Of a stretch of DNA of 64,000 nt, positions 16,743 to 50,660 are shown piece by piece. The position numbers were made by a program, and so were the translations under genes. Position 1 is the stretch's first letter. The number at the start of each line of letters is the position of its first letter. The notes beneath the pieces were generated by a model. That model worked only from the letters and a program-made list of their open reading frames with translations. It had not been told where the DNA came from and did no database searches. Source of the stretch: Bradyrhizobium diazoefficiens (GTDB lineage Bacteria > Pseudomonadota > Alphaproteobacteria > Rhizobiales > Xanthobacteraceae). The stretch lies in the NCBI RefSeq assembly GCF_016616885.1, contig NZ_CP067102.1, forward strand, positions 372,001 through 436,000, written 5' to 3'.

Positions 16743-16768
16743 GGAACGTCTGCGCAACGGCTTTCGTT
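16743..16768 (+). promoter_or_regulatory. EcfG-type promoter of csbD
   Basis: GGAAC, 17-bp spacer, CGTT: an exact fit to the alphaproteobacterial general-stress sigma consensus, 36 bp before the csbD start codon. Confidence 0.75.
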
Positions 16769-16804
16769 GTGTAATGGTTGTCCGGACAGCAAAGGAACAT
16801 GATC

Positions 16805-16996
16805 ATGGACCGAGAACACGTGAAGGGCGCTGCCGACAAGGCAAAAGGCGCCATCAAAGAAGGTGCCGGCAAGCTCACTGGCGACAAGGACCTGGAAACT
16901 GAGGGCAAGATCGATAAGGCCAAGGGATCCGCCCGCAACGCTGCGGGAGATGTCAAGGATGCAGCGCGGGACGCCGCAGACGCCCTCAAGAAATAA
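16805..16996 (+). CDS. CsbD family stress protein
   Basis: 63 aa, highly charged, with the CsbD pattern (KGAADKAKGAIKEGAGKLTG and KIDKAKGSARNAAGD). CsbD proteins are small stress-induced proteins of unclear biochemical role. The second ATG is chosen because AAAGGA lies 8 bp upstream; the ATG six bases earlier would leave only 2 bp. An EcfG-type promoter lies upstream and a strong intrinsic terminator downstream, so this is a complete single-gene unit. The group II intron begins right behind the terminator. Confidence 0.9.
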   Translation: MDREHVKGAADKAKGAIKEGAGKLTGDKDLETEGKIDKAKGSARNAAGDVKDAARDAADALKK

Positions 16997-17020
16997 GCAG
17001 AAGACGGAAGATCAAAAGCT

Positions 17021-17046
17021 GGCCGCCTCCGGGCGGCCTTTTTGTT
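17021..17046 (+). terminator. Intrinsic terminator of csbD, used as intron target
   Basis: GGCCGCC-TCCG-GGCGGCC followed by TTTTTGTT. It is a strong GC stem with a T-tract directly upstream of the group II intron 5' end, matching the known preference of class C introns. Confidence 0.9.
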
Positions 17047-17456
17047 GTGTGCCGAGTATGAACGACAGCTTGGAGGTGGAAGTCCTCTATCCAGCCTGAT
17101 GACGGCGAAGGATTAGCGAAGCGCAAGGGCGTCATCGCGAGGTGGGGTCTGAAGAAAGCGTGGAACAAAGCCGCGGCCCGATGGACAAACACCGGATAAC
17201 GAGGCCTACCCGGCCGGACGAGCGAGCAACTGATCGCGAAGTCCACGGTCATCAAAGGTCGGGGTGGCAAATCCGGCGGGGGTGCGGTGAAGGCAGTCGG
17301 TCTTACCTCGGGAGGTCTGCGCTGTGTCCCGGACTCGGGACCGAGGTCGTCGCAAGGCGGCCTGACCGCAGCGCAGAAGTCAGCCGAGGGCATAGTAGGC
17401 GGCAGCGCGCCGCCGAAGGCCTGAACGGTGGAAGTGGTTAGTAGAGCGGCGATCTC

Positions 17457-18845
17457 GTGCAAGCCATGCGGCAGAAGAATCAGATCGAACTGAACTTGGG
17501 CACCGGAACGAGGGGTGAAGCCCCAAGCGCCGCCGCCCAAGAGACTGAAGCCTGCACGGCGAGAACCAGCCTCGAACGCCCGGCGGTCGCGGGGCCGTCG
17601 ATGGAAGACGTTGTCGAGCGTGAGAATCTGAAGACAGCGTTGGCGCAAGTGAAGCGTAACAAGGGAGCGGCAGGCATCGACGGCATGAGCGTCGATGACT
17701 TGCCGGTCTACCTGAAGGAGCATTGGCCTGCGATCCGGGCTCAGTTGCTTGATGGCACTTACAGGCCGCAGCCGGTGCGGCGGGTGAAGATACCGAAGGC
17801 GTCGGGCGGCGTGCGGCTGCTCGGCATTCCGACGGTGCTCGACCGTCTGACCCAGCAGGCGGTGATGCAGGTGCTGCAAGCTGACTGGGACGGAACGTTC
17901 TCCGAGACGAGCTACGGCTTCCGACCGAAGCACTCGGCGCATCAGGCGGTGGAGCAGGCGCAGGCGTATATTGCGTCCGGACACGCCGTCGTCGTGGACA
18001 TCGACCTGGAAAAGTTCTTCGACCGGGTCAACCACGACATCCTGATGGGGCTCGTTGCCAAGCGGGTTGCCGACAAGCGTCTCCTGAAGCTCATCCGCGG
18101 CTTTCTAACCGCAGGTGCGATGGAAGGGGGGCTGGTCAGCCCGACGGAAGAGGGTACGCCGCAGGGCGGTCCGCTCTCGCCGCTGTTGTCGAACCTGATG
18201 CTGGACGTGCTGGATAAGGAATTGGAGAAGCGCGGTCACCGCTTCGTGCGTTACGCCGACGACTGCGACATCTATGTGCGCAGTCAGGAGGCGGGCGAAC
18301 GGGTGTTGGCCGGCATCGAACGGTTCCTCGAAAGGCGCCTCAAGCTCAAGATCAACAAGGCCAAGAGTGCGGTCGCCAAACCGAGTGTCCGCAAGTTCCT
18401 GGGCTTCAGCTTTACCGGCGGAAGCGAACCACCGCGACGGCGCATCGCGCCGCAGGCGCTCGCCCGCTTCAAGGCCAAGGTTCGGGAGCTTACGCGACGC
18501 ACATGCGGCCGAAGCATCGCGCAGATTGCCAAGAAGCTGTCGGCCTACCTGATCGGGTGGCGCGGCTACTTCGGCTTCTGTCAAACTCCTTCGGTGTTGC
18601 GCGTGCTTGACCGGTGGATCAGGCGGCGGTTGCGCGCCATCGTCTGGAAGCAATGGAAGTATGGACCCGCTCGTTTCGCCGAGCTGCGACGCCGCGGCGT
18701 CGGCCGGGACCTGGCAGCGAAAACTGCCGGCGCCCCACATGGCCCTTGGCGGCTCGCGAATAGCCCCGCGCTGACCATTGCTCTGCCAAACAGCTTCTTC
18801 GCCGCACTCGGCTTGGCTTCCGTCGCGGCACAGCGGCCTGCATAA
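17457..18845 (+). CDS. ltrA: Group II intron reverse transcriptase/maturase
   Basis: 462 aa. The reverse transcriptase has YGFRPKHSAHQA (about 153-164), DLEKFFDRVNHD (183-194), GTPQGGPLSPLLSN (233-246) and the catalytic YADD (266-269). It is followed by the maturase (X) domain, ending in GWRGYFGFCQTP and WKQWK. No HNH endonuclease domain is present, as in class C introns, which retrotranspose into single-stranded or terminator-associated targets. The start is GTG 17,457; an ATG at 17,466 is an alternative. It drives splicing and mobility of the host intron. Confidence 0.95.
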   Translation: MQAMRQKNQIELNLGTGTRGEAPSAAAQETEACTARTSLERPAVAGPSMEDVVERENLKTALAQVKRNKGAAGIDGMSVDDLPVYLKEHWPAIRAQLLDGTYRPQPVRRVKIPKASGGVRLLGIPTVLDRLTQQAVMQVLQADWDGTFSETSYGFRPKHSAHQAVEQAQAYIASGHAVVVDIDLEKFFDRVNHDILMGLVAKRVADKRLLKLIRGFLTAGAMEGGLVSPTEEGTPQGGPLSPLLSNLMLDVLDKELEKRGHRFVRYADDCDIYVRSQEAGERVLAGIERFLERRLKLKINKAKSAVAKPSVRKFLGFSFTGGSEPPRRRIAPQALARFKAKVRELTRRTCGRSIAQIAKKLSAYLIGWRGYFGFCQTPSVLRVLDRWIRRRLRAIVWKQWKYGPARFAELRRRGVGRDLAAKTAGAPHGPWRLANSPALTIALPNSFFAALGLASVAAQRPA

Positions 18846-18853
18846 TCCGCCGA

Positions 18854-18885
18854 ACCGCCGTATACGGACCCGTACGTACGGTGGT
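18854..18885 (+). ncRNA. Group II intron domain V
   Basis: A 9-bp lower stem ACCGCCGTA/TACGGTGGT with one G-U pair, a short upper stem TACGG/CCGTA and a two-base CG bulge. The 5' strand carries CGC, consistent with the catalytic triad of class C introns rather than AGC. Confidence 0.8.
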
Positions 18886-19057
18886 GTGGGAGGGGCGGAG
18901 CCGCGAGACTCCCCCCTATCCCGATTTCTGCTGGTCCGTCGGGCAGAGTGCAGACGGCCTTACCTCATGGAACGCGAAAACAACGGCAGCTTGGAATAGC
19001 GGCCAGTGCTCGTCCCGAACTTCAATTGCGAAATCGCTGGACCGGCCGATCTGTGTT

Positions 19058-19339: not shown

Positions 19340-19364
19340 GGAACGGAGCCATAGTGGCCCCGTT
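19340..19364 (+). promoter_or_regulatory. EcfG-type promoter of the first PRC-barrel gene
   Basis: GGAAC, 16-bp spacer, CGTT, ending 32 bp before the ATG. Confidence 0.75.
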
Positions 19365-19396
19365 GACTTCCAAGGCAACATCCAGGAGGGGCCACC

Positions 19397-19762
19397 ATGG
19401 CCACTATGGAAGATCGCGAGACGTTTAGCCTCATCGGAAGCGACAAGGTCGAGGGCACGAACGTGTACGGGGCCGACGGCGAAAAGGTCGGTTACATCGA
19501 GCGCGTCATGATCGACAAGGTCAGCGGCAAGGTGTCGTACGCGGTGCTCAGCTTCGGCGGCTTGCTCGGCATCGGCGACGATCACTATCCGCTGCCCTGG
19601 CAGGCCCTGAAATACGACACCAACCTCGGCGGCTACGTCACCGGCATCACCCAGGACCAGCTCCGCGGCGCCCCCAAATACGCCGACGAGAGCAGTTGGA
19701 ATTGGAGCGACCCGGCGAGGACGCGCTCCGTGAACGCCTATTACGGTGTGCCAGTGGCTTGA
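19397..19762 (+). CDS. PRC-barrel domain protein
   Basis: 121 aa, no signal peptide. A PRC-barrel spans about residues 10-85 (VEGTNVYGADGEKVGYIERV, KVSYAVLSFGGLLGIGDDHY, PLPWQAL). The strong ribosome-binding site AGGAGG lies 10 bp before the ATG. PRC-barrel proteins of this length are common soluble stress proteins in rhizobia, with an unproven link to membrane or RNA binding. It is a paralogue of the genes at 21,141 and 40,938. The truncated response regulator downstream may once have shared its transcript. Confidence 0.9.
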   Translation: MATMEDRETFSLIGSDKVEGTNVYGADGEKVGYIERVMIDKVSGKVSYAVLSFGGLLGIGDDHYPLPWQALKYDTNLGGYVTGITQDQLRGAPKYADESSWNWSDPARTRSVNAYYGVPVA

Positions 19763-20165: not shown

Positions 20166-20245
20166 AGCCCGTAAGGGTGGCAGCGGATCGTCGCTCGCAC
20201 GCGCCATTCTTTAGCCACGCGTTGCGGCCGCGGCGCGCGCCCCTC

Positions 20246-20425
20246 GACCGCCATCCAGTCCCGCAGCAGGCCTATGTCCTCTCTCGAAAAGGACGCTCGC
20301 CGCTTGAGATCGTCCAGCGTCTCACCGGGATGGCATCGCTCGAAATCCTCGCGGATCAGCGACTCGAGGTAGGTCCGCTCCCACGCGCCGGCTGGATCGA
20401 GATACTGGTGCGAGTAGGTCTTCAT
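20246..20425 (-). pseudogene. Small conserved protein, 3' end lost (copy 1)
   Basis: The minus frame YLESLIREDFERCHPGETLD, then DLKRRASFSREDIGLLRDWM, is closely related to the complete 71-aa protein at 50,281-50,496. After about 60 residues the frame does not stop as in that copy but runs on for hundreds of codons antisense to other genes, so the native end is gone. The start ATG (20,425) has only a weak ribosome-binding site. Function unknown. Confidence 0.55.
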
Positions 20426-20560
20426 GGTTGTCGTTTCGATGCACGCCGTCGAGGGCGGTCCGGATGCCGGCACAACGGCAGGAGTGATTGTTGGTTCACG
20501 AATGGATCTGTCCGTCGAGGACGGATTCGCAGAGGTTCTTGAGGGAGAGGCACCGAGGCG

Positions 20561-20585
20561 GGAACCTGTGCAAGTCCAGGCCGTT
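20561..20585 (+). promoter_or_regulatory. EcfG-type promoter of the zinc-ribbon gene (copy 1)
   Basis: GGAAC, 16-bp spacer, CGTT, 35 bp before the ATG. The corresponding site at 50,636 is also intact. Confidence 0.7.
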
Positions 20586-20953
20586 CGCAGCCATGGGACT
20601 TGCCTGGAAGGAGCCATCAGATGATCGAAACCGATACGCTTTTGGAGAAATGTCCCCGCTGCGGCGCCTGGCCCATGGCCGCGAACCTGCAGCGGACGTC
20701 ATCCGCGCAGCCGGATATCCGGTTCAGGTGTCCAAGGTGCCATAGTGACGAGGCGGGCCGGCTGCGTCGCCCGTTCGTGCAGCGCGGCCCGGAGCAGAAT
20801 CTGGACGCGGCCTAAAGATGAAGATCCGGTCCCATTCTGAAAGCCACATCGTCGAGCTCGAAGACGGCTCGAAATGGCAGGTGTTTCCAGGCGATCTGGA
20901 TCTCACGCTCGCCTGGAAACCCGAAACCGATTTAGCGGTCGCCGTGGCCGACG
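20581..20953 (+). repeat. 373-bp near-identical duplication, copy 1
   Basis: Matches 50,656-51,029 with, by eye, only two differences: one inserted G and one G/A substitution. It contains the zinc-ribbon gene and the first 45 codons of the next gene. The boundaries fall inside the promoter spacer on the left and inside a gene on the right. Confidence 0.9.
20621..20815 (+). CDS. Small zinc-ribbon protein
   Basis: 64 aa. Two CPRC knuckles (CPRCGAW near residue 11 and CPRCHSD near residue 37) form a classic zinc ribbon. AAGGAG lies 7-12 bp before the ATG. The partner could be nucleic acid or protein. It is followed after 2 bp by the next gene. This copy is intact, whereas the duplicate at 50,697 is frameshifted. 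Confidence 0.75.
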   Translation: MIETDTLLEKCPRCGAWPMAANLQRTSSAQPDIRFRCPRCHSDEAGRLRRPFVQRGPEQNLDAA

Positions 20954-21140: not shown

Positions 21141-21521
21141 TTATAGACCACCTGGTCGCGCCTCCCAGTACATAGGCGTTCCGTAATACTGGTGGGTGCG
21201 CGTTTCCCAGTCTCGATCTTGCCACGAGTCATCACTGAACTCAGGCGCATCTCTCAGCTGTTGCTCGGTGATATTGGTTCGAAAACCACTACGCGACGTA
21301 TCATATGTCAGAGCGCCCCAGGGAATGGGGTAATGGCTGTGGCCTAACCCGACAAATCCGCCAAAGCTCATGACGGCATAAGCCACGCGACCTGACACCT
21401 TGTCGATGATGAGGTGATCTATCTCACCGATATTCTTCCCGTCTGCTCCATAAACCTCGGTTCCTTGAATGTCTTCGCTTGAGATGCATTGATGATCCGG
21501 ATGGGCTGTTGCGCGGGCCAT
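21141..21521 (-). CDS. PRC-barrel domain protein
   Basis: 126 aa, soluble. The PRC-barrel spans about 14-85 (IQGTEVYGADGKNIGEIDHL, RVAYAVMSFGGFVGLGHSHY, PIPWGAL). It is about as long as the 19,397 paralogue, and both end in a Tyr-rich tail (YYGTP here, YYGVP there). Its own EcfG-type promoter lies 37 bp upstream. A general-stress role is likely; the molecular function is unknown. Confidence 0.9.
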   Translation of the reverse strand: MARATAHPDHQCISSEDIQGTEVYGADGKNIGEIDHLIIDKVSGRVAYAVMSFGGFVGLGHSHYPIPWGALTYDTSRSGFRTNITEQQLRDAPEFSDDSWQDRDWETRTHQYYGTPMYWEARPGGL

Positions 21522-21557
21522 GGCTTCGTCTCCCTCACAAGTGGATTTTGTCGGCTT

Positions 21558-21582
21558 AACTCGGCCGCTACGTGGGCGTTCC
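21558..21582 (-). promoter_or_regulatory. EcfG-type promoter of the second PRC-barrel gene
   Basis: On the minus strand: GGAAC, 16-bp spacer, AGTT. The position before the start fits; the first base of the -10 box deviates. Confidence 0.6.
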
Positions 21583-24269: not shown

Positions 24270-24659
24270 CTTTTGTTCCTGCGATCGGCGCCTCTGACTT
24301 ACGCAAAGAAGAACTTGTTGCAACACGGTAGGAACCGAAGATTGGTTTCTCTCACAAGCTGGCGCTTCTGGAGGATTTCGAGGATTCCGATCGGCCGGCA
24401 TCGGAGCACGACGCCCGGATACGTCTGGGATACGTGGATGATGAGGACGTCCAACGGGTCCCCGTCTTCGGCTTGTGTCGAGGGAATGAAGCCCCAATCA
24501 TACGGATAGGTGAGCCCCGCCATTTAGGGGCTTCGCAAGCGTGAACACCTTCAGCTCCGGATCGAACTCTAATTTGCAGGTGCTTCCACGGGGCCTTTCG
24601 ATCACGGCGTAGATGTTTTTCTCGTCGGCCCACGTCGGGAGCTTGCTCAGGTTCGTCAT
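24270..24659 (-). pseudogene. Frameshifted inorganic pyrophosphatase remnant
   Basis: Starts with an ATG at 24,659 and reads YAVIERPRGSTCKLEFDPEL in one frame. After an extra A in AAA near 24,525 it continues in another frame as AGLTYPYDWGFIPSTQAEDG and DPLDVLIIH. A second shift near 24,345 leads to a frame with ERNQSSVP, and similarity then fades. The active-site DGDPLDV core survives but no single frame holds it all. The intact homologue is at 48,868. Confidence 0.75.
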
Positions 24660-24771
24660 GGGTCTGCAGGCGCTGCGTTGTCTGGCCTTTGAAACGGCAA
24701 CGTGAATCGTTTGTTCCTCCCTTCGCGCCGCGCCGGCGTTACTCACGCTGACGCGCAATAGCCCCATGAGG

Positions 24772-25038
24772 CTACTTGGGAGGCTCGACCGTAGTTTTTG
24801 TCGATCCGTCGGGCGCCGGCTGCATCCGTGGCGGGCTTTGCCCTTGGGGACTTTCCGGAGGCGCACCACCTGAACCGGTGTTGGTAGGCCCGGTCCAGCC
24901 CTGCGGCTGCAATTGACCCTTGTCTTCGGGCGCCGAACGCCCGCTCGGCGCGGCAAGGTCGTCCGCCGGCTTGGCAGGCTGTGCTATCGCCAAACCAGCG
25001 GACAGCACAAGACATATCGATGCTAGTCGGACGCGCAC
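24772..25038 (-). CDS. Small secreted Pro/Gln-rich protein
   Basis: 88 aa. Signal peptide (RLASICLVLSAGLAIAQ), then a low-complexity chain rich in Pro, Gly and Gln. GTG at 25,038 is preferred because GGAGG sits 5 bp upstream; a GTG six bases earlier overlaps that site. It is divergent from the 25,154 gene with back-to-back EcfG-type promoters. Probably periplasmic and stress-induced; no motif. Confidence 0.65.
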   Translation of the reverse strand: MRVRLASICLVLSAGLAIAQPAKPADDLAAPSGRSAPEDKGQLQPQGWTGPTNTGSGGAPPESPQGQSPPRMQPAPDGSTKTTVEPPK

Positions 25039-25068
25039 TGACACCTCCGTTGACCCTGATCAACGAAG

Positions 25069-25093
25069 AACTTCCCGCCGATCCTGCCGTTCC
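25069..25093 (-). promoter_or_regulatory. EcfG-type promoter (leftward, secreted protein)
   Basis: Minus strand GGAAC, 16-bp spacer, AGTT, 31 bp before the GTG. Its GGAAC lies 8 bp from the GGAAC of the rightward promoter. Confidence 0.6.
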
Positions 25094-25101: not shown

Positions 25102-25127
25102 GGAACCGAATTGCTGATTCCTTCGTT
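25102..25127 (+). promoter_or_regulatory. EcfG-type promoter (rightward, basic protein)
   Basis: GGAAC, 17-bp spacer, CGTT, 27 bp before the ATG: an exact consensus match. Confidence 0.75.
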
Positions 25128-25153
25128 CAAGAACGACTTACAGGAGGACTTTA

Positions 25154-25441
25154 ATGGCAAGAGCATCATGGAAGCGACCCGGCTCGCCGATCGGCAAGAA
25201 GGGCCCGCGCAAGGCAAATCCGTCATATAAGCGTCGTACGCGTGAACTGTGGTCGAGCGCCGATGTGAAAATGCTCAAGCAGCTCGCGAAGGGCAACACG
25301 CCGACCGGAGTCATGAGCGTCAAACTTCAACGTCCCGTCGCGGCTATCCGCAGCAAGGCGCAACGCGAAGGGATTTCCCTGAAACCCATCAACCGTTCGC
25401 CCTACAACCGGCGCGCAACGAAGAGGCGTTCACATCGCTAG
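25154..25441 (+). CDS. Small basic SANT/Myb-like protein
   Basis: 95 aa, strongly basic at both ends. The middle (ELWSSADVKMLKQLAKGNTP, then RPVAAIRSKAQREGISL) resembles a SANT/Myb-type helical DNA-binding unit: a Trp, a three-helix pattern and an IRSKA recognition-helix-like segment. GGAGG lies 9 bp before the ATG. A stress-induced nucleoid or regulatory role is an inference; the family is not firmly identified. Confidence 0.7.
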   Translation: MARASWKRPGSPIGKKGPRKANPSYKRRTRELWSSADVKMLKQLAKGNTPTGVMSVKLQRPVAAIRSKAQREGISLKPINRSPYNRRATKRRSHR

Positions 25442-25944: not shown

Positions 25945-26559
25945 TCATGTCACGGGTCGCGCCGCTTCCTTGACAACCTGGCCCGTGGTCGCCATTCCGG
26001 CGGCGTAGGCCGCTCCCGCGCCGAGAAGAAGGGCGCAGAAGCTTGCAAACATCGCATATGCGAAGTGCTTCCGGGCCGCATCAATTTGAGCGGGTGTTGC
26101 AATTCGCGTCGTCGCGCCGACGGTTTCCCGTCCCGTGTTGTTCGACCAGTACGCGATGCGCGTGCTGGCGGAATATGACGGCCCGACGAGGTTGCTGGCG
26201 ATGCTGGTCGCCGACGCCGGCAACATCGCCGCCGCACCGACCACCACGACGGTTGCGACCGCCCAGGCGGCCATCGCATGCCCGACCCGACCGAGGCCGG
26301 TCTGATCCGGCGAATTGGCTGCCGCCACGGCGCCACCCAGAAATGCGGCGATGATGCCTGAGACCGCCCACCACACGAATGCCGCCCAGCCTGCGCCAGC
26401 AGGCGCCGATGAAGCGGTGGGAATGTCGATCGCGAGCAGACCGATGCCGAACCCCAGCATGGTCAGCAGGATCTGGACAACCAACGAAGTGAACACGCCG
26501 GCCAGTACGGCTGACCAAGTCCAGCCAAAAAACAAATTGGGAACGGTGCGTGTAGCCAT
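25945..26559 (-). CDS. Membrane protein (often labelled PhnA-like in rhizobia)
   Basis: 204 aa with four likely transmembrane helices: AVLAGVFTSLVVQILLTMLG, WAAFVWWAVSGIIAAFLGG, MAAWAVATVVVVGAAAMLP and FASFCALLLGAGAAYAAGM. GGAGGA sits before the ATG at 26,559. Many rhizobial homologues are named PhnA-like, although they resemble no phosphonate enzyme. An EcfG-type promoter lies upstream. The function in the inner membrane is unknown. Confidence 0.8.
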   Translation of the reverse strand: MATRTVPNLFFGWTWSAVLAGVFTSLVVQILLTMLGFGIGLLAIDIPTASSAPAGAGWAAFVWWAVSGIIAAFLGGAVAAANSPDQTGLGRVGHAMAAWAVATVVVVGAAAMLPASATSIASNLVGPSYSASTRIAYWSNNTGRETVGATTRIATPAQIDAARKHFAYAMFASFCALLLGAGAAYAAGMATTGQVVKEAARPVT

Positions 26560-26594
26560 GGCGAAATCCTCCAACAGCCTATGCTCCGGTTCGA

Positions 26595-26619
26595 AACGCG
26601 TGGTTGAGTCGTCCGTTCC
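26595..26619 (-). promoter_or_regulatory. EcfG-type promoter of the membrane protein
   Basis: Minus strand GGAAC, 16-bp spacer, CGTT, 36 bp before the start: a consensus match. Confidence 0.7.
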
Positions 26620-30596: not shown

Positions 30597-32141
30597 CTAT
30601 TCCGCGGCCTGGACACTCGGCGGAATTTCCACCGGCGCGAGCGGAGATACGGCAGGCCCATTGAGCGCGGTACCATCCGGCGCGAATTGAGAACCGTGGC
30701 AGGGGCAGTCCCAGCATTGTTCTAGCGAATTCCAATGCACGACACAGCCAAGATGGGTGCAGCTTGCCGACAGCAGGCGCAACTCGCCCTGGCGATCGCG
30801 GCTGGCGGCAATCTTCTTCAATCCGTTCCGAACCAGCCGGCCCTCTCCCAAGCGAAGCCGCTCCACCGAGGCAAGCGCATCGGCGCCGAGATATTCCGCA
30901 AAGTTCTTCAGCGGCGTGATGTTCTCACTGATGAAGGTGGTGATGTTCTTGAAGATCTTGCGCTCGGGCAAATAGACGGCCTCCCAGCTATTGCCGCCGA
31001 CCGTAATCAGATCCGCAATCAGAAGGCCTGCCACGAGACCATTGGTTATGCCCTGTCCGGAATCGCCGCTGACGAGGAAAACATGCTCTTCGTCCGGGCT
31101 GCGTCCAACGAAGCCGGTGAAGTCCATGGGTTCGAGCACTTGGCCAGACCAACGATGGGTGATCTGGCCGATATTTGGCAACCGCGTTCGCGTCCACCGT
31201 TCGAGTGCGGAAAAGCGCGCCTGGCCATCGTCGACCTCGCCGGACTTGTGGTCTTCACCGCCGACGATCACGATGTCCTCATCCGCCGAAGCCGGCTGCA
31301 GGCGGACATAGTGATAGGGATCGAGCGTGTCCCAATACAGCGCATCCGGCAGCGAGCCGGCCGGGACCTTGGCCGCAATCACATAGGTGCGATAGGGTGC
31401 CTGCTTGGTATGGATCGCGGCCCGCAGATTGACCGGCGAGTTCGTCGCGACGACAACGTCCGTGACCCGCACCTCGCCGCTTGAAGTCTTGAGAACGATT
31501 TCTCCGCGACCGCGCTCGATCGTCTCGACGCAGGTGTCACCGTAAAGCCTAGCGCCGCGCCGATGCAGCGCTTTCGCCAATCCGGCAAGGTATTTGGTCG
31601 GATGAAAGCGCGCCTGTTGGGGGAAACGAAGCGAGCGCGCAAGACCGCCGTCATGGATGGGTGTCGGATCGCTGCAAAGCTCGACGGGAATTCCAAGCTT
31701 CCTACAGCTTTCGAATTCCTCATCCAGATGCGATGGCAGGGTCTCCGGCGCCAACACCCAAAAGCCATCGACGCGGCGGAAATCACAATCAATTCCCTCG
31801 GCGGACTGGATCGCCTGCGCGCGGTCGATCGCGGCGGCGACGCTCTGGTAATACAGCCGGGCGCAATCCTCACCGCGGACCCTGATCAGCTCCTTGTAGT
31901 CGTCGTCCAAGGCTGTTGCCAAATGCGCAGTGGTGCGCGCCGTCATTCCGCTGCCGATACGACCGCGGTCGAGCACGATGACCGAGCGCCCGCGCGCGGC
32001 CAGTTCATAGGCCACCGACAGACCGGCGATGCCGGCACCGACCACGCCGACGTCGGCACGTGCCTGCCCCAAATAGCGCGCAGCCGCCGGAATGAACGCC
32101 TCCATCCAAAGCGATTTGGTATCCTCATCCAGCACGTTCAT
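30597..32141 (-). CDS. FAD-dependent oxidoreductase with C-terminal Rieske domain
   Basis: 514 aa. DAO-type flavoprotein: GAGIAGLSVAYELAARG (FAD-binding, 35-51), ARTTAHL, and RWSGQVLEPMDFTGFVG with DSGQGITNG near the end of the FAD part. Residues 440-514 form a Rieske [2Fe-2S] domain with CTHLGC (461-466) and CPCHGS (479-484). The ATG at 32,141 has GGAGG upstream. Such fusions are common in rhizobial stress islands; the electron donor and substrate are unknown. An EcfG-type promoter is directly upstream. Confidence 0.92.
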   Translation of the reverse strand: MNVLDEDTKSLWMEAFIPAAARYLGQARADVGVVGAGIAGLSVAYELAARGRSVIVLDRGRIGSGMTARTTAHLATALDDDYKELIRVRGEDCARLYYQSVAAAIDRAQAIQSAEGIDCDFRRVDGFWVLAPETLPSHLDEEFESCRKLGIPVELCSDPTPIHDGGLARSLRFPQQARFHPTKYLAGLAKALHRRGARLYGDTCVETIERGRGEIVLKTSSGEVRVTDVVVATNSPVNLRAAIHTKQAPYRTYVIAAKVPAGSLPDALYWDTLDPYHYVRLQPASADEDIVIVGGEDHKSGEVDDGQARFSALERWTRTRLPNIGQITHRWSGQVLEPMDFTGFVGRSPDEEHVFLVSGDSGQGITNGLVAGLLIADLITVGGNSWEAVYLPERKIFKNITTFISENITPLKNFAEYLGADALASVERLRLGEGRLVRNGLKKIAASRDRQGELRLLSASCTHLGCVVHWNSLEQCWDCPCHGSQFAPDGTALNGPAVSPLAPVEIPPSVQAAE

Positions 32142-32164
32142 GGCATTTGTCCTCCGGCATACAA

Positions 32165-36140: not shown

Positions 36141-36252
36141 TGGGTACGAAGGAGCGCAGGGCGGAAATCCAGAAGGGTCCGAAGTTTCCAGACCGGCGCC
36201 CGCGCCGGACCCGAGCTGGCATCCGGCACACCGCTCTCGCGGCAACAAAAAA

Positions 36253-36675: not shown

Positions 36676-36701
36676 GGAACGATTGCCATCATTCACGGGT
36701 T
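36676..36701 (+). promoter_or_regulatory. EcfG-type promoter of the DUF1236 gene
   Basis: GGAAC, 17-bp spacer, GGTT, 35 bp before the ATG. Confidence 0.65.
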
Positions 36702-36736
36702 CTCGCAGCGCCGCATCCAGCGGCCAGGAGAGACTC

Positions 36737-37078
36737 ATGAAGAAGCTGCTGCTGATGTCTGCGGCCGCCGCGCTCGTCTCGACGGGCGCGATGGCTCAGT
36801 CGACGGTGGTCACCACCACAGGCGCCGGTCATGCCGCCGTGCAGATCGAGCCGGAATACCGCACCAAGATCCGCACCTACGTGACCGAGCACAAGATCCG
36901 CCCGGTCGAGACGCGCGAGAAGATCGTCGTAGGTCAGCCCGTTCCGCGCGATGTCGAACTCGAGGCGGTGCCCGCCGACTGGGGTCCGTCGCTCACCAAA
37001 TACCGCTACGTCTACTCCGGCGAACGCGTGATGCTGGTCGATCCGTCGACGCGCACCGTGGTCCAAGAGGTGGACTAA
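36737..37078 (+). CDS. DUF1236 domain periplasmic protein
   Basis: 113 aa. Signal peptide (KKLLLMSAAAALVSTGAMAQ) and one DUF1236 domain (about 45-113): EHKIRPVETREKIVVGQPVP, RDVELEAVP, YVYSGERVMLVDPSTRTVVQ. This small beta-rich domain is common in secreted rhizobial proteins and its function is unknown. GGAG lies before the ATG at 36,737. The larger protein at 42,174 carries two copies of the same domain. Confidence 0.88.
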   Translation: MKKLLLMSAAAALVSTGAMAQSTVVTTTGAGHAAVQIEPEYRTKIRTYVTEHKIRPVETREKIVVGQPVPRDVELEAVPADWGPSLTKYRYVYSGERVMLVDPSTRTVVQEVD

Positions 37079-39448: not shown

Positions 39449-40549
39449 ATGCGGATCGCCCAGCTTGCTCCGTTGGCCGAGAGCGTTCCGCCGAAGCTTT
39501 ATGGCGGCACGGAGCGCGTGATCGCGTGGCTTGTCGACGAACTGGTCGAGCTCGGACACGACGTCACCCTGTTCGCGAGCGGGGATTCGAAGACGAAGGG
39601 AAAGCTCCATCCCGTCTGGCCGCGCGCGCTACGCCTGGGGCGGAGGGGTGCGGATCCGAACGCCGCATGCGCGCTGCTGATCGAAGCCATCGCCGAGCGC
39701 GCGGGCGACTTCGACGTAATCCACTCCCACGTCGACTGGCTGCCTCTTCCGGTGCTGAGCCGGACCGGCATGCCGTTCCTCACGACGATGCACGGCCGCC
39801 TCGATCTTCCCGGCCTGTCCGACGTGATCGGGGCTTTCCCGAACGCGCCATTCGTCTCGATTTCCGACAACCAGCGTCGACCGCTTCCCGACGCGAACTG
39901 GATCGCGACGATCCAGCACGGTCTGCCCAAGGATCTGCTACGGCCCTCCTACGAACCGGGTTCGTATCTGGCCTTTCTTGGGCGGCTGACGGCGGACAAG
40001 GGACCGGAAGCCGCCATACGCATCGCACGCGCCGCGCGGATGCCGCTGCGGATAGCGGCCAAAATACCTCGCGCGGAGACGGCCTACTTCAAGAAGAAGC
40101 TCGAGCCGAACATCGATGGCGGGGAGATCCAACTTGTCGGCGAAGTGGACGAAATCAGGAAGCAGCCGTTCCTCGCCGGGGCCGCCGCCTTGCTGTTTCC
40201 GATCGGGTGGCCGGAGCCGTTCGGTCTCGTCATGATCGAAGCGATGGCGTGCGGGACGCCCGTGATTGCCTACCGAGCGGGTTCGGTGCCCGAAGTGGTG
40301 GAAGACGGCGCCACCGGCTTTATCGTGGATAACGAGGAGCAGGCGATCAGGGCGGTGAACGAACTGGGCCGGCTGGACAGAAGAGTGGTCCGCGCCCGGT
40401 TCGAGGAGCGCTTTGCCGCGAGCCGGATGGCGAAGGAATACGAACGCCGATATCGCGAGCTGCTCGGTCGCGGAGGACGCGAAGGATTCGAGAAGGGGGC
40501 AGCCATATCTCTTTCCGCAGTCGGAACAGCTTCTGAGTCTCTTCGTTGA
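39449..40549 (+). CDS. GT4 family glycosyltransferase
   Basis: 366 aa GT-B fold enzyme. N-terminal acceptor domain starting RIAQLAPLAESVPPKLYGGT with the GGTE loop; the middle FLGRLTADKGPEAAIRIAR starts the donor domain; the EX7E motif region is EPFGLVMIEAMACGTPVIAY (family GT4). It transfers an activated sugar, possibly in trehalose, polysaccharide or glycolipid synthesis. Soluble or peripheral. Intact paralogue of the broken gene at 32,893. Confidence 0.9.
   Translation: MRIAQLAPLAESVPPKLYGGTERVIAWLVDELVELGHDVTLFASGDSKTKGKLHPVWPRALRLGRRGADPNAACALLIEAIAERAGDFDVIHSHVDWLPLPVLSRTGMPFLTTMHGRLDLPGLSDVIGAFPNAPFVSISDNQRRPLPDANWIATIQHGLPKDLLRPSYEPGSYLAFLGRLTADKGPEAAIRIARAARMPLRIAAKIPRAETAYFKKKLEPNIDGGEIQLVGEVDEIRKQPFLAGAAALLFPIGWPEPFGLVMIEAMACGTPVIAYRAGSVPEVVEDGATGFIVDNEEQAIRAVNELGRLDRRVVRARFEERFAASRMAKEYERRYRELLGRGGREGFEKGAAISLSAVGTASESLR
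40523..40547 (+). promoter_or_regulatory. EcfG-type promoter of the 60-aa secreted protein
   Basis: GGAAC, 16-bp spacer, CGTT, located inside the end of the glycosyltransferase gene. Confidence 0.7.
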
Positions 40550-40570
40550 GTTGCCGATCGGGAGGCTCGC

Positions 40571-40753
40571 ATGAAAACCATTCTTTCCGCGACGGCGGCT
40601 TTTGTTGTTTTCGCGACGGCGGCACTTGCGGACGAAGTACCTCCTCCGCAGCCGAAGGTCCAGCAGAACGACGACCCTGCGAAACAAACGGAAGACTGTT
40701 CGAAGCAGGTTTGGCCGCATTTTTCGCAGGCTTGCCTCCGCCCCGAAGGCTAG
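40571..40753 (+). CDS. 60-aa secreted protein
   Basis: Signal peptide (TILSATAAFVVFATAALA) and a 40-residue mature part rich in Pro, Gln and charged residues, with two Cys (EDCSKQVWP and SQACLRP) that may form a disulfide. GGGAG lies before the ATG. Driven by its own EcfG-type promoter. Function unknown, periplasmic. Confidence 0.7.
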   Translation: MKTILSATAAFVVFATAALADEVPPPQPKVQQNDDPAKQTEDCSKQVWPHFSQACLRPEG

Positions 40754-40864: not shown

Positions 40865-40889
40865 GGAACGAGTGGCAATCGCGGGCGTT
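40865..40889 (+). promoter_or_regulatory. EcfG-type promoter of the secreted PRC-barrel gene
   Basis: GGAAC, 16-bp spacer, CGTT, 48 bp before the ATG. Confidence 0.7.
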
Positions 40890-40937
40890 GGGCCGGGCAT
40901 CTGAAAGGGTGCTGGTTCACGTTGGAGGAGATAATCG

Positions 40938-41450
40938 ATGAAAAGCTTTCTCGCCGTTGCTCTGCTTGGCACTGCCGTGATCGGCGGCGCCGCGTTCGCC
41001 CAATCCACTCAGCCAGCCGATCGCGGCGCCCCGGCGGCCACCGCCCACCCAGCCGATGCGAAGATGGCGCTGAAGGGCAACTGGCGCGCCTCGAAGCTCA
41101 TGGGGCTGAACGTCTACAACGAAGCCAACGAGAAGCTCGGCGACATCAACGAGCTGCTCGTCGACAAGAGCGGCAAGATCAACGCGGTGGTGATCGGCAT
41201 CGGCGGCTTCCTGGGAATGGGCGAGCACGACATCGCCGTCTCGATCGACAAGCTGAAATTTGCGGAAGAGCCTGTCCGGACCAGCTCGAGCAGCACCTCG
41301 ACCACCTCGCGCGACACCACCACCGGCGCCGCGTCGACGACGACCACGAACCGCAACGCAAACGATTGGGTACCCGACCACGCCGTCATGAGTGGCAACA
41401 AGGAGCAATTGAAGGCGCTCCCGCAGTTCAAATACTCGGACTACAACTAA
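40938..41450 (+). CDS. Secreted PRC-barrel protein
   Basis: 170 aa. Signal peptide (FLAVALLGTAVIGGAAFAQ), then a PRC-barrel (about 48-105: ASKLMGLNVYNEANEKLGDI, INELLVDKSGKINAVVIGIG) and a Ser/Thr-rich linker, ending HAVMSGNKEQLKALPQF. Unlike the other two PRC proteins here it is exported. GGAGGAG lies before the ATG and a strong terminator follows. A periplasmic stress role is likely. Confidence 0.88.
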   Translation: MKSFLAVALLGTAVIGGAAFAQSTQPADRGAPAATAHPADAKMALKGNWRASKLMGLNVYNEANEKLGDINELLVDKSGKINAVVIGIGGFLGMGEHDIAVSIDKLKFAEEPVRTSSSSTSTTSRDTTTGAASTTTTNRNANDWVPDHAVMSGNKEQLKALPQFKYSDYN

Positions 41451-41724: not shown

Positions 41725-41952
41725 TTACTGTTCGGTGCAGACCTTGGTGGTCTTCACGGCGGACTCGGCTTCCGTCTTGGTCTTGTAGACGCCGTCGCCC
41801 ACGACCGTCGTGGTGGTCGTCGTCGGCTTGGTGTCAACGACGGTGCACTTCTTGGTAGTCGCGTCGCGCACGATGTAGAACTCGGCGGCGCTGGCGGCCT
41901 GGGTGCCGAGGGCGAAGGCGGCGAGAGCGCCGCATACGATCAGCTTCGTCAT
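41725..41952 (-). CDS. 75-aa secreted protein
   Basis: Signal peptide (KLIVCGALAAFALGTQAASA), then EFYIVRDATTKKCTVVDTKP, a run of six Thr and TEAESAVKTTKVCTEQ. Two Cys in the mature part may pair. Short proteins of this FYIVxDxxTKKCxVV type are abundant in Bradyrhizobium; function unknown. GGAGGAG lies before the ATG at 41,952, and an EcfG-type promoter is upstream. Confidence 0.8.
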   Translation of the reverse strand: MTKLIVCGALAAFALGTQAASAAEFYIVRDATTKKCTVVDTKPTTTTTTVVGDGVYKTKTEAESAVKTTKVCTEQ

Positions 41953-41988
41953 GGTGTCTCCTCCAATGGCTTCTAAGTAGTTACTGCC

Positions 41989-42013
41989 AACGAGAGGGCT
42001 CGCGCGAAGTTCC
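41989..42013 (-). promoter_or_regulatory. EcfG-type promoter of the 75-aa secreted protein
   Basis: Minus strand GGAAC, 16-bp spacer, CGTT, 37 bp before the start: a consensus match. Confidence 0.7.
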
Positions 42014-42121: not shown

Positions 42122-42146
42122 GGAACCCGGCGCTTTGTCCGGTGTT
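42122..42146 (+). promoter_or_regulatory. EcfG-type promoter of the double-DUF1236 gene
   Basis: GGAAC, 16-bp spacer, TGTT, 28 bp before the ATG; the first -10 base deviates. Confidence 0.55.
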
Positions 42147-42173
42147 GTTCGGCGACCAATTAGGAGGATTCAG

Positions 42174-43265
42174 ATGAACAAGCGTTTATTCTTGGCCACG
42201 ACCGCCGCAGTCGCGCTCGCAACTTCGGCTCTCGCGCAATCTTCTCCGAGCACGTCGAGCTCCATTCCGTCAGCTACGCAGCGTCAGCAGGATTCAACAT
42301 CGGCGCCGCCGCCGTCCTCTTCGACGTCGACACCGTTGTCCAACTCCTCTTCGGGATCCGCGCAGACCAATCCTTCGAATTCGGCCCAGACGCAGCCTCC
42401 GTCATCGACCGGCCAGAGCGCTGCAGGCCAAACCTCCGGTACGGGCACCAACACCACGCAGGCGCCCACGTCGAACAACTCTACCAACCAGGCGCAGACC
42501 AGCCAGCCCTCCAGCCAGACCAATCCGCCTTCGAACCAGGCGCAGACCAATCCGCCTGCGAACAATCAGACGCAGAGCGCGAACCCACCGGCTTCGGGCA
42601 CCACTCAGGCGCAGTCCCCGACGGGTAGCAATTCGACCACCACGGCCCAGCAGCCGGCGAACACGGCCGATCGCTCGAACACGAACGTGGATGCGTCTGT
42701 AAATATCAACGATCAGCAGCGGACGCGGATCAGCACGTCGATTTCGCACCTGAACGTGCAGCCGCTCAACAACGTGAATTTCTCGTTGTCGGTCGGCACG
42801 GCCGTGCCGCGCGATGTGCGTCTACAGCCGCTGCCTGCGGAGGTCGTCGAGATCGTGCCGCAGTACCGGGGCTACAACTTCGTGCTGGTGAAGGACGAGA
42901 TCGTGATCGTGGAGCCCTCCAGCTACAAGATCGTCGCGGTCCTGCCGTACTCGGGCCGCTCCACGGCGGCCGCTCCGGCGCCCGCCGAGCAGCGCAAGAC
43001 GACGTTCACCGATAGGGACCGCGAGGTGATCCGCAAGCACGCCAAGGCACGTCCCGTCGAGCGCGAGCGACAAACGACCGGCAGCACGGTCCGAACCGAG
43101 ATCCGCCGGGGCGAGCGCGTGCCGGAGGGCGTCGAAATCGACGCCTTCCCCGACGAGGTCTATCGCGAGGCGCCGAGTCTGCGGGAGTACCGGTACATTC
43201 ACCGGGATAGCCGCACCTACATCGTCGAGCCGCAGGAACGTCGCGTCATCGAAGAAATCGACTGA
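42174..43265 (+). CDS. Secreted protein with Ser/Thr/Gln-rich linker and two DUF1236 domains
   Basis: 363 aa. Signal peptide (RLFLATTAAVALATSALAQ); residues 25-165 are a low-complexity NPPSNQAQT-type linker; then two DUF1236 domains: SVGTAVPRDVRLQPLPAEVV (about 205-265) and RRGERVPEGVEIDAFPDEVY (about 308-363). The linker may span peptidoglycan. AGGAGG lies before the ATG. The next small secreted gene starts 25 bp later. Function unknown, envelope-associated. Confidence 0.85.
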   Translation: MNKRLFLATTAAVALATSALAQSSPSTSSSIPSATQRQQDSTSAPPPSSSTSTPLSNSSSGSAQTNPSNSAQTQPPSSTGQSAAGQTSGTGTNTTQAPTSNNSTNQAQTSQPSSQTNPPSNQAQTNPPANNQTQSANPPASGTTQAQSPTGSNSTTTAQQPANTADRSNTNVDASVNINDQQRTRISTSISHLNVQPLNNVNFSLSVGTAVPRDVRLQPLPAEVVEIVPQYRGYNFVLVKDEIVIVEPSSYKIVAVLPYSGRSTAAAPAPAEQRKTTFTDRDREVIRKHAKARPVERERQTTGSTVRTEIRRGERVPEGVEIDAFPDEVYREAPSLREYRYIHRDSRTYIVEPQERRVIEEID

Positions 43266-43839: not shown

Positions 43840-44229
43840 TCCTTGGGGAGCACAGGATTGAGAAGGCGAAAGCTTCACCGAAGCCTTCGCCTCGCGGCGC
43901 TTCCCAGGATTGGCGGACGAAGGCCCCAGCTCCGGGGGGCAGGGGGCTATGAGCTGGGGCCAGTACGGGGTCGCCCCTTGGGGCAGGGGCCTCGGGAAAA
44001 CTTGGCACTCGCGCTTTCGTTCCTCTTCTTCGCGCTGCGAAGTTTCGGATCGGGTCGCCAGGAAAGACGCGGAGGTCCCGTCCGCGTCTGCGACGATTTT
44101 CGTCGCCGCCCGCCGCCTGCACGCTCGCAGGACGCGAGCGGGGGCAGTCTGCGAAAGTTAAAATTGGCCGCTAAGAAGCAATGCTCCCTCAGCAGATCAG
44201 CGCTACGATGCGCCCTGCTGGGGGCAACA
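43840..44229 (+). other. Gene-free stretch with a perfect inverted repeat
   Basis: About 390 bp. Apart from the 11-bp inverted repeat at 43,922-43,961 there is no recognisable gene. Several short frames are open but lack ribosome-binding sites. Confidence 0.4.
43922..43961. repeat. Perfect 11-bp inverted repeat with 18-nt loop
   Basis: GGCCCCAGCTC / GAGCTGGGGCC. It could be a stem-loop in RNA or a protein-binding palindrome; there is no T-tract, so a terminator is unlikely. Confidence 0.6.
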
Positions 44230-45331: not shown

Positions 45332-45340
45332 GATTGCCCG

Positions 45341-48188: not shown

Positions 48189-48213
48189 GGAACCAACATT
48201 TTGCTGGCCGGTT
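48189..48213 (+). promoter_or_regulatory. EcfG-type promoter of the DUF892 gene
   Basis: GGAAC, 16-bp spacer, GGTT, 35 bp before the ATG. Confidence 0.65.
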
Positions 48214-48248
48214 TCTCGCCCGTACCAATTCAAGAGAGGAGCGATCCC

Positions 48249-48746
48249 ATGGCAAGCGGGAAGAATTTGAAGGAGCTGTTTCATGACACGCTGAAAGACA
48301 TCTATTTTGCGGAAAAGAAGATCCTGTCGACCTTGCCGAAAATGGCGAAGGCGGCCCAGTCCAAGGATCTCAACGCCGCCTTCCAAAAACATGAGACCGA
48401 GACCGAAGAGCACGTGGCTCGACTCGAACAGGTGTTTGAGGAAATCGGCGAAACGCCGCGAGGCAAGACTTGCGATGCCATCATGGGCATCATCGAGGAG
48501 GGCCAAGAGGTTATGAAGGAATTCAAGGGCGCGCCCGCCCTCGATGCCGGTCTCCTTGCGGCGGCGCAGGCGGTCGAACATTATGAGATCGCCCGCTATG
48601 GGACGCTGAAGACCTGGGCCGCCGAGCTAGGGCTGAAACAGTCCGTGAAGCTGCTGGAAGCAACCCTTGCCGAAGAAAAGAAGACGGATGAGACCTTGAC
48701 GAAGCTCGCCGAGAGTGAGGTCAATCAACACGCCCAAGCGGCTTGA
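48249..48746 (+). CDS. DUF892 (YciE/YciF) ferritin-like stress protein
   Basis: 165 aa four-helix bundle: LKELFHDTLKDIYFAEKKIL, then FQKHETETEEHVARLEQVFE, GLLAAAQAVEHYEIARYGTL and LLEATLAEEKKTDETLTKLA. Conserved Glu/His (EHYE, HETE) are the di-metal ligands of this ferritin-like family. Known members respond to osmotic and general stress. AGAGAGGAG precedes the ATG; EcfG-type promoter upstream. Confidence 0.93.
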   Translation: MASGKNLKELFHDTLKDIYFAEKKILSTLPKMAKAAQSKDLNAAFQKHETETEEHVARLEQVFEEIGETPRGKTCDAIMGIIEEGQEVMKEFKGAPALDAGLLAAAQAVEHYEIARYGTLKTWAAELGLKQSVKLLEATLAEEKKTDETLTKLAESEVNQHAQAA

Positions 48747-49404: not shown

Positions 49405-49738
49405 CTTTAGACCTTGGCGCGCCGCTTCTTCGATACTGGAGATTTCAAGGCGACCGCGCGGGAGCTCAGAAGGGCAAGCACGCGCTGAAGCAAGGTTGAT
49501 CGCGCGAGCCGGTAGCGCGAAGCCTTCGATGCCCGCAAGCACGCCGACGAACCATCGCCAGCACATCGGAGACGGGCCCGGGTCGAACATCTACCGAATA
49601 CTTCAAAACTCGCATCTTGGGCCTGACGAAATTACGCTGCCAAAAGGTTGATTCCGCGGGAAGGGCGTGGTGCACCCAAGCGACGGATCCGACGGCGGTC
49701 CAGGCTACGGCGATCGCAAGGCTCGGCCGCGAGAGCAG
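49405..49738. other. Remnant-bearing spacer
   Basis: About 330 bp. The only recognisable content is the deleted copy of the 75-aa gene (49,587-49,652) and its downstream flank, duplicated from about 44.4-44.55 kb. Confidence 0.5.
49587..49652 (+). pseudogene. Internally deleted copy of the 75-aa gene
   Basis: IYRILQNSHLGPDEIT is followed directly by LPKG and stop, matching the first 18 and last 4 residues of the 44,230 gene. The ATG is missing. The following about 85 bp match the flank of the first copy. Confidence 0.75.
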
Positions 49739-50104
49739 CTAACCCGGCGGCGCTTCCTTTTCCTCGCCGAGCTCCTTGATCATGCGGACGATCTCCTCCG
49801 GATGGAAGGGCTTCTGGACGATCCGGCTGCCCGGGACGGGGCGTGGTGTGGCGGGCGAAAAGCCCGTCGCGTAGATGACCGGCAATTCCGGATCGCTTTC
49901 GCGGCAGCGCTCCGCGATCTGCCAGCCGTCGATGTTCCCGGGCAGCCTGACGTCGGTGACCAGCACGTCCGCGACGTGGCGCTTGCACCAGTCCAGCGCC
50001 TCTTCCCCGTTGCTCGCGTGGATGACGTGGTAGCCCGCATCGCGCAGCGCTTCGACAACGAATTCACGGATAAGGGGGTCGTCCTCGACGAGAAGTACGC
50101 TCAC
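49739..50104 (-). CDS. Single-domain response regulator
   Basis: 121 aa receiver: VLLVEDDPLIREFVVEALRD (acidic pocket), phosphorylatable Asp in VLVTDVRLPGNIDGW, conserved Thr in IYATGF and Lys in IVQKPFHPEEIV. No output domain, so it acts through partners. The GTG at 50,104 is chosen but lacks a good ribosome-binding site; an EcfG-type promoter ends 39 bp upstream. The broken copy lies at 44,543. Confidence 0.85.
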   Translation of the reverse strand: MSVLLVEDDPLIREFVVEALRDAGYHVIHASNGEEALDWCKRHVADVLVTDVRLPGNIDGWQIAERCRESDPELPVIYATGFSPATPRPVPGSRIVQKPFHPEEIVRMIKELGEEKEAPPG

Positions 50105-50142
50105 TGGCGGCTCACTTGGGATAGCGTTCGCAACGCATGTCG

Positions 50143-50167
50143 AACTGCCCAATTGCGTCGTCGTTCC
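50143..50167 (-). promoter_or_regulatory. EcfG-type promoter of the response regulator
   Basis: Minus strand GGAAC, 16-bp spacer, AGTT. Confidence 0.55.
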
Positions 50168-50280
50168 TGGCGTGAGCGGGACTGGAGGGCTCAAGCGGCC
50201 TCGGCGCAACGCGAGGGATAGGGAAATCGGCAAGGCCGTTCGTGTGCTGGTAGTAAAGGATGAAGCTCCGATCTGCAGCT

Positions 50281-50496
50281 TCATCGAGGACGCCCCATGG
50301 TCGCCCGAGCGGCCGCTACGGCCATCCAGTCCCGCAGCAGTCCTCTGTCCTCTTTCGAAAAGGACGCGCGCCGCTTGAGATCGTCCAAGGTCTCGCCCGG
50401 ATGGCATTGCCCGTAATCGTCGCGGATCAGCGACTCGAGATAGCTCGGGTCCCCCTCGCTGCCGGGATCGAGATGCTGGGGCGAGTCGGTTCTCAT
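50281..50496 (-). CDS. Small conserved protein (intact copy)
   Basis: 71 aa. YLESLIRDDYGQCHPGETLD, then DLKRRASFSKEDRGLLRDWM and a short basic end. AGAGGA precedes the ATG at 50,496. Helical, soluble, no known family. It is the intact version of the gene broken at 20,246. A short receiver-domain start (AVRVLVVKDEAPICSFIEDA) on the other strand near 50,233-50,295 is a remnant. Confidence 0.65.
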   Translation of the reverse strand: MRTDSPQHLDPGSEGDPSYLESLIRDDYGQCHPGETLDDLKRRASFSKEDRGLLRDWMAVAAARATMGRPR

Positions 50497-50635
50497 GGAT
50501 TTCCTCTGGCGCACGTGGTGGCGGCGTCACGATGCAGCACATAACGGACATAACGGGAAGAGCAGTCGTTGGTTCGGGCGCAGATCCTTGCCTGGCGCCA
50601 CGTCGACGGCGTCCAGGTCTGGAAGGTGCCGAGAC

Positions 50636-50660
50636 GGAACCTCCGCAAGTTCAAGCCGTT
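50636..50660 (+). promoter_or_regulatory. EcfG-type promoter of the duplicated zinc-ribbon locus
   Basis: GGAAC, 16-bp spacer, CGTT. Its spacer differs from copy 1 while both boxes are conserved. Confidence 0.65.

Follow-up and report, generated by a model that had tools for sequence, protein, structure and literature searches.

Promoter motifs of EcfG-type sigma factors, which serve the general stress response, have been described as GGAAC-N16-CGTT for EcfG1 of Rhizobium etli (PMC3892343) and as GGAAC-N17-20-GTT for EcfG of Sphingomonas melonis (PMC6599016), and many alphaproteobacteria possess more than one EcfG (PMC3892343); these papers, like the others cited here, are represented by excerpts of their text. 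EcfG-dependent small RNAs (sRNAs) include GsrN of Caulobacter, which has a C-rich loop (PMC5869019), and ReC64 of R. etli (PMC3892343). In Sinorhizobium meliloti, predicted sigma-E2 motifs were found at 23 sRNAs (PMC3616915), and position at the EcfG locus has been used to predict GsrN-like RNAs of Bradyrhizobium diazoefficiens (PMC5869019). Genomic islands at tRNA genes have been described as common in Bradyrhizobium (PMC11218460). Here, we report on a 64-kb stretch of a B. diazoefficiens chromosome (C1:372001-436000 of a genome consisting of one contig of 8,085,095 bases; hereafter the window, at its full length) in which a dense cluster of EcfG-type promoter motifs lies within an island at a tRNA-Thr gene. 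The locus probably represents the stress-gene cargo of this island, switched on by the EcfG of the host through many promoters of its own. A literature search on EcfG with genomic islands, horizontal gene transfer or plasmid-borne genes returned no such island, judging by titles and the beginnings of abstracts, and one on PRC-barrel, CsbD, DUF892 and Bradyrhizobium returned no paper joining three of these four.

Clustering and conservation of the promoter motif

A pattern scan of both strands of the window for GGAAC-N16/17-NGTT revealed 20 sites, ten per strand, 12 of which carry the exact CGTT box. All 20 fall between positions 16743 (first start) and 50660 (last end), with none elsewhere in the window; a single CGTT site with an 18-nucleotide (nt) spacer lies beyond this stretch, at 62428. 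The original prediction, made from the letters alone, had counted about 18 sites, eleven of them CGTT, with none left of 16 kb or right of 51 kb; the clustering and its boundaries hold, and only the counts were slightly low. A duplicated segment accounts for both the site at 20561 and that at 50636, leaving about 19 independent ones.

Chance clustering in GGAAC-rich sequence is one conceivable explanation, and this pentamer has a modestly raised frequency in the stretch, at 2.06 per kb compared with 1.26 in the remainder of the window and 1.53 in three control stretches. When the 33.9-kb stretch was resampled under a first-order Markov model (n = 300), CGTT sites averaged only 0.72 and NGTT sites 1.67, with maxima of 5 and 8. 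In a sliding 34-kb count, the 12 CGTT sites form the maximum of the genome, the next best separate stretch holding 5, and the highest 34-kb maximum among 2000 random placements of the genome's 145 sites was 8. The genome-wide density, proposed in the original prediction as the comparison that could refute it, is not equal to that of this region: CGTT sites occur at 0.354 per kb inside and 0.0165 per kb elsewhere, a 21-fold difference (Poisson P about 1e-12 for at least 12 sites). In the flanks, 100 kb in all with 40 kb on the left and 60 kb on the right, three NGTT sites occur, and three control stretches of 20 kb from the same genome contain no CGTT site. Moreover, the excess is confined to the expected spacing, with 16 NGTT sites at N16, four at N17 and at most two at each of the 21 other lengths between 8 and 30. 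The probability of chance clustering is thus negligible.

Across the whole genome, the 145 exact CGTT sites (95 with N16, 50 with N17) compare with 167 for a reversed control pattern. The genome-wide total is therefore at chance level, which led us to reject the idea that such sites abound throughout the genome, and the remaining members of the regulon cannot be identified by the exact pattern alone. The spacing signal recurs in related loci. From 253 loci at which relatives of the stretch's FAD/Rieske gene lie, 80 were kept, and in these GGAAC-CGTT pairs number 125 at N16, 42 at N17 and 31 at N28, with 3-16 at each other spacing (8-30). When four plasmid stretches were added (84 loci), N16 was the commonest spacing for each of the four letters before GTT (A 37, C 139, G 55, T 35); as a group, boxes other than CGTT thus appear genuine. 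Arrangements of the form GGAAC..GTTCC, in which sites on the two strands overlap, were observed at L001:1828-1855, L087:23171-23197 and L089:4307-4333, one of them at the PhyR-NepR boundary; a weak peak at N17 (8, with 0-5 at other lengths) accompanies them, and they are perhaps two-way promoters.

The promoters are conserved beyond their surroundings in relatives. Nineteen of the 20 sites had a relative, yielding 51 pairs, and because the relatives share ancestry these counts are not independent. Agreement in the eight core bases reaches 405 of 408 positions, compared with 649 of 826 in the spacer and 644 of 765 in the 15 nt downstream. All eight were kept in 48 of the 51 pairs, where 13 would be expected at the spacer rate, and site by site the core exceeded the spacer at 16 and tied with it at three.

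The host possesses an intact PhyR-NepR-EcfG locus at C1:1.10 Mb, where EcfG and PhyR adjoin the one NepR match of the genome (Pfam), no search for further EcfG paralogues having been made. Its phyR-nepR boundary carries GGAAC..AGTT and GGAAC..GGTT, one on each strand. GAAC-like -35 boxes are used by other extracytoplasmic function (ECF) sigma factors too. The promoters could accordingly be read by one of these, or by a paralogue of EcfG that recognises a similar -35 box, given the multiple EcfG factors of many alphaproteobacteria noted above; the genes would then form the regulon of that factor, not of the general stress response. We consider this unlikely, since the motif equals that of R. 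etli EcfG1 and resembles that of S. melonis EcfG, as excerpted, since the genome's own PhyR-NepR boundary bears GGAAC..AGTT and GGAAC..GGTT, and since CsbD, PRC-barrel and DUF892 proteins fit a role in stress. In all likelihood, EcfG itself would transcribe much of the cargo.

The tRNA-Thr island and its shared modules

The whole window is contained in an island of 68.5 kb that runs from a tRNA-Thr(CGT) gene (C1:368428-368503) to a 46-nt direct repeat of the tRNA 3' end (C1:436923-436968, 97.8% identical), the latter 0.9 kb right of the window. Beyond positions 1-64000 of the window, the island extends 3.5 kb left to the tRNA gene and 0.97 kb right to the repeat. About 0.3 kb from the repeat, an intact tyrosine recombinase of 407 amino acids is encoded on the minus strand; its C-terminal part lies at 63361-64000 and its gene continues to 64584. 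In the genus set of 60 genomes, 57 had the upstream HemY-like gene, and the 12 relatives picked from these all lack the island at the tRNA-Thr site. The first core gene of the right flank, encoding a polysaccharide deacetylase, follows the tRNA gene by 1.3-4.2 kb in these relatives and by 71.7 kb here, and the next core genes occur in the same order. Searches with the island proteins at the empty sites returned weak cross-matches only, to an SDR protein (26-29%, 12 of 12) and a pyrophosphatase (30-51%, 3 of 12).

These observations already contradict the view that the locus is an ordinary, vertically inherited chromosomal cluster of stress genes that merely happens to be dense. Such clusters may exist, as the second, smaller group of five CGTT sites at C1:1312-1324 kb looks chromosomal; for the present locus, however, the tRNA-Thr repeat, the integrase and the 12 relatives without the island make vertical inheritance very improbable. 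That second densest cluster (L165:7550-18796) lies near an AI-2E-like transporter gene and a CsbD-like open reading frame (ORF). The island itself may still be mobile today.

No match to EcfG or PhyR was found in the 68,465-bp island at E values up to 1, and the one NepR match (27%, E 0.58) was taken as chance. As the island encodes neither EcfG nor PhyR, its cargo should depend on those of the host, a dependence we consider quite likely. No symbiosis genes were seen among the island proteins scanned.

Related modules are reshuffled in other Bradyrhizobium chromosomes and plasmids. We took the seven closest PRC-barrel relatives (86-96%) from the 60 genus genomes and compared 20-60 kb at each. 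A run of glycosyltransferase, PRC-barrel, 75-residue ORF, DUF1236 and 105-residue ORF was whole in four of the seven regions (G007, G040, G047, G058) and partial in three. The seven regions contain 7, 7, 4, 4, 4, 2 and 1 CGTT sites, with 0.33-0.89 expected from other spacings. Whole-genome CGTT totals and controls were 154 and 165 for the genome of the B. cytisi locus and 141 and 156 for that of the B. liaoningense locus. Three plasmids typed as conjugative, p195_2, pCC829_1 and pS11L-1, carry differing mixes of Hsp20 pairs and genes for ferritin-like/DUF892 proteins, pyrophosphatase, FAD oxidoreductase, DUF1236, PRC-barrel, CsbD and porin, with CGTT counts of 18, 29 and 48 over the whole plasmid (reversed controls 5, 8 and 28). 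pUSDA123-1, typed as mobilizable, carries glycosyltransferase and PRC-barrel genes. The modules have probably moved among replicons. A search with 24.3 kb of the cargo matched 129 plasmid records, none of which covers more than 80% of it. The island as a known plasmid segment is not supported, as the best plasmid among the matches listed covers 11% of the 24.3 kb at one place.

Genes and a candidate sRNA behind the sites

The EcfG-type sites occupy the middle half of the island, flanked on the left by a PATR protein and on the right by DUF3987, primase-like and integrase genes. For sixteen sites, an ORF start follows at a distance of 22-48 nt, and a seventeenth, on the minus strand at 50143, lies 38 nt before a response regulator with a GTG start; the placement before start codons in the original prediction thus stands for 17 of 20 sites, at closer range than the 24-60 bp it gave. 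Target ORFs were picked by length and Shine-Dalgarno-like letters, with at least two such tetramers in 15 of the 16. The minus-strand site at 28028 precedes an 11-codon ORF and is without a clear target, as is that at 34140, which also has no match in relatives.

At the left end, a CGTT site precedes csbD (16799-16996; together 16743-16996, plus strand) and is kept on plasmid pCC829_1. Three PRC-barrel genes follow suit. The first (19397-19762; with its CGTT site 19340-19762, plus) has the site kept in three relatives, in one as GGTT; the second (21141-21582, minus) has an AGTT site at 21558-21582 kept in two; and the third (40865-41450, plus) has a CGTT site kept in eight, in seven of them as CGTT. 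Between the first and second, a CGTT site precedes a 64-residue ORF with weak zinc-ribbon similarity (20561-20815, plus), and its duplicate at 50636-50821 (plus) precedes a shortened second copy of the ORF at 20621. This duplication involves a segment of about 0.7 kb (20242-20939 and 50313-51015, 30,075 bases apart) that flanks most of the cargo, each copy with its own site.

Further sites accompany genes of diverse kinds. A CGTT site at 24693-24717, kept in B. cytisi, precedes a pyrophosphatase gene split over two frames (24299-24717, minus). An AGTT site at 25069-25093 precedes an 88-residue ORF without a Pfam match (24772-25093, minus), and divergent from it a CGTT site kept in three relatives precedes a 95-residue ORF (25102-25441, plus). 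CGTT sites also stand before a 204-residue membrane-like protein (25945-26619, minus; site 26595-26619) and the FAD/Rieske oxidoreductase (30597-32189, minus; site 32164-32189, kept in five relatives). The first DUF1236 gene (36676-37078, plus) has a GGTT site. The second (42174-43265; with its site 42122-43265, plus) has a TGTT site kept in five relatives and diverges from a 75-residue ORF (41725-42013, minus) whose CGTT site at 41989-42013 is kept in seven. A CGTT site kept in two relatives precedes a 60-residue ORF (40523-40753, plus), a GGTT site the DUF892 gene (48189-48746, plus), and the AGTT site at 50143-50167 the single-domain response regulator (49739-50167, minus). The family 4 glycosyltransferase gene (39449-40549, plus), with which the recurring module begins, lacks an immediately upstream site and leaves the list of site-bearing genes, in which the original prediction had placed a glycosyltransferase; the OprB porin gene likewise has none directly upstream.

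The AGTT site at 43999-44023 has no ORF behind it. Downstream, on the minus strand, lies a candidate sRNA (43912-43998; together 43912-44023) with a predicted stem with a C-rich loop followed by a terminator-like hairpin; the window copy lacks a T-run, so that the terminator may be weak. The predicted fold has a z-score of -2.2 for the window copy (5 of 200 shuffles as good) and -4.7 for a second copy at C1:3.268 Mb (0 of 200), and covariation support is modest, 2 of 17 pairs changing on both sides.

A promoter-inclusive DNA search found relatives in 21 of the 60 genus genomes (E up to 0.001). A covariance model of the transcript alone, built from 26 copies chosen for carrying the promoter, detected matches in 35 of 60 (E up to 0.01), with 39 places in 19 genomes exceeding 45 bits. 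An exact GGAAC-N16/17-NGTT site stands at the model start in 38 of 41 copies above 45 bits, two of which came from a search of the order. Among copies outside model building, 12 of 15 carry the site, and two of the remaining three show GAAAC instead; of the weaker matches looked at, three of five carry it. Among 150 genomes of the order, seven matched, four of the same genus (this genome included) at 75 bits or more and three others at 25.6-29.6 bits; because the strong matches are same-genus only, a family reaching beyond the genus is not supported. Near-identical promoter-plus-RNA starts occur on pCC829_1 and pS11L-1, and related copies in Bradyrhizobium chromosomes. This genome has two strong copies, at C1:0.416 and 3.268 Mb, and the model detects no copy at the EcfG locus (1.10 Mb). 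An Rfam search of positions 16000-56000 of the window (E up to 1) returned no match on the sRNA. In 11 stretches with other copies, matches on or near them stayed below threshold (mir-4928 at 25.2 bits, cut-off 100; suhB at 21.3, cut-off 41; Pseudomon-1 at 21.1, cut-off 50); as no copy reaches a cut-off, membership of a known Rfam family is not supported. A literature search on Bradyrhizobium or EcfG sRNAs returned none recognisable as this family, papers not being searchable by sequence.

Other elements lie within or beside the cargo. Between csbD and the first PRC-barrel gene sits a group II intron with a reverse transcriptase (17131-18925, plus; Rfam RF02001, RF01998, RF00029; Pfam RVT_1 and GIIM). 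Two Hsp20 genes (35079-36226, minus) lie behind a ROSE RNA thermometer at 36109-36226 (RF00435, 46.3 bits, cut-off 45) and not behind an EcfG-type site, so the island mixes control layers. The left part of the island is taken up by a 3768-residue PATR-repeat, autotransporter-like protein (1642-12948), followed at 13542-14707 by remnants of another integrase (DUF6538, below cut-off) and a DDE transposase. DUF3987 and primase-like (CHC2, Toprim) genes are located at 58933-61655, near the integrase.

Probable wiring to the host and comparison with known systems

Several points weigh against a functional, host-switched island. Some cargo genes are broken, including pyrophosphatase and glycosyltransferase remnants split over frames, and a response-regulator remnant carries a stop. 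Little CGTT excess is seen in G040 and G007, two of the seven related regions, with 1 against 0.56 expected in one of them and 2 against 0.89 in the other, and pUSDA123-1 falls below its own control (6 against 13). Plasmid cover of at most 11% at one place means that relatives share modules, not the island. Base composition is not telling, as the GC content of the island (62.1%) falls between the 64.5% of both flanks and the 60.3% of three further stretches of the chromosome. Together with the duplicated segment and the intron insertion, the broken genes could indicate that the island is decaying and that its promoters are relics of little present effect. This appears improbable, as relatives retain the core bases much better than the spacers, and many of the ORFs behind sites have an open frame and highly identical matches elsewhere.

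The coherent regulon of the original prediction is thus supported by density, spacing, conservation footprints, gene content and the PhyR-NepR-EcfG locus, with EcfG dependence read from sequence. As a description it was incomplete: the genes are cargo of a tRNA-Thr island, the Hsp20 pair is under a ROSE element, the glycosyltransferase and OprB genes lack a site directly upstream, several coding sequences are broken, and behind one site lies an RNA.

For the island switched on by host EcfG, the following course may be proposed. A tRNA-Thr(CGT) gene on a Bradyrhizobium chromosome would have been the island's point of entry, and its own tyrosine recombinase most likely the means. Its cargo would be a mosaic of small genes for stress protection, coding for CsbD, PRC-barrel, DUF1236, DUF892, pyrophosphatase, FAD/Rieske and small proteins of membrane or secreted type, along with a candidate sRNA, and an EcfG-type promoter of its own would precede many a member. 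Under stress, host PhyR would bind NepR, EcfG would be freed and the cargo would be turned on; the island would join the existing alarm system of its host, bringing none of its own. We lean towards the view that the cargo protects the cell under stress.

A broader proposal, for which we see equal weight on either side, is that the general stress regulon of Bradyrhizobium grows through shared mobile cassettes that are wired to EcfG without encoding it and are reshuffled between conjugative plasmids and the tRNA-integrated island. Recipient sensors would set the timing, and the cassettes would add post-transcriptional regulation through C-rich, EcfG-driven sRNAs of a Bradyrhizobium-specific family. 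A recipient has to bring acquired genes under its control, and this locus offers a clear case of many genes that seemingly arrived pre-wired to a conserved host stress sigma factor. Such cassettes would help explain the spread of stress tolerance among soil and symbiotic bradyrhizobia, and they make possible a direct test of whether an island or plasmid obeys the EcfG of a new host. In a genus that serves as crop inoculant, the sRNA family would open a second way into the study of general stress control.

Compared with described EcfG regulons, as far as the excerpted accounts go, the window motif is the same as that of R. etli EcfG1 (PMC3892343) and resembles the one of S. melonis EcfG (PMC6599016), whose targets also list a PRC-barrel gene and glycosyltransferases (PMC6599016). 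Unlike in those regulons, the sites here are concentrated in a single acquired island that encodes neither EcfG nor PhyR, and elsewhere in the genome exact sites do not outnumber those of the reversed control. The candidate sRNA resembles GsrN and ReC64, as excerpted, in having an EcfG-type promoter directly upstream of a small RNA, and GsrN in its exposed C-rich loop, here predicted only; it differs from GsrN in that several genomes have more than one copy and the two strong copies of this genome lie away from the EcfG locus. GsrN may serve by analogy as a functional model, membership not being claimed. Like the ROSE thermometers of rhizobial small heat-shock genes, RF00435 stands directly upstream of the Hsp20 pair, with no difference seen; the island carries it as an ordinary component. 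Finally, the island shares with the tRNA-integrated islands of Bradyrhizobium, as excerpted (PMC11218460), its tRNA insertion, direct repeat, integrase, and transposase and intron remnants, and differs from them in a cargo dominated by stress genes that would be regulated by the host.

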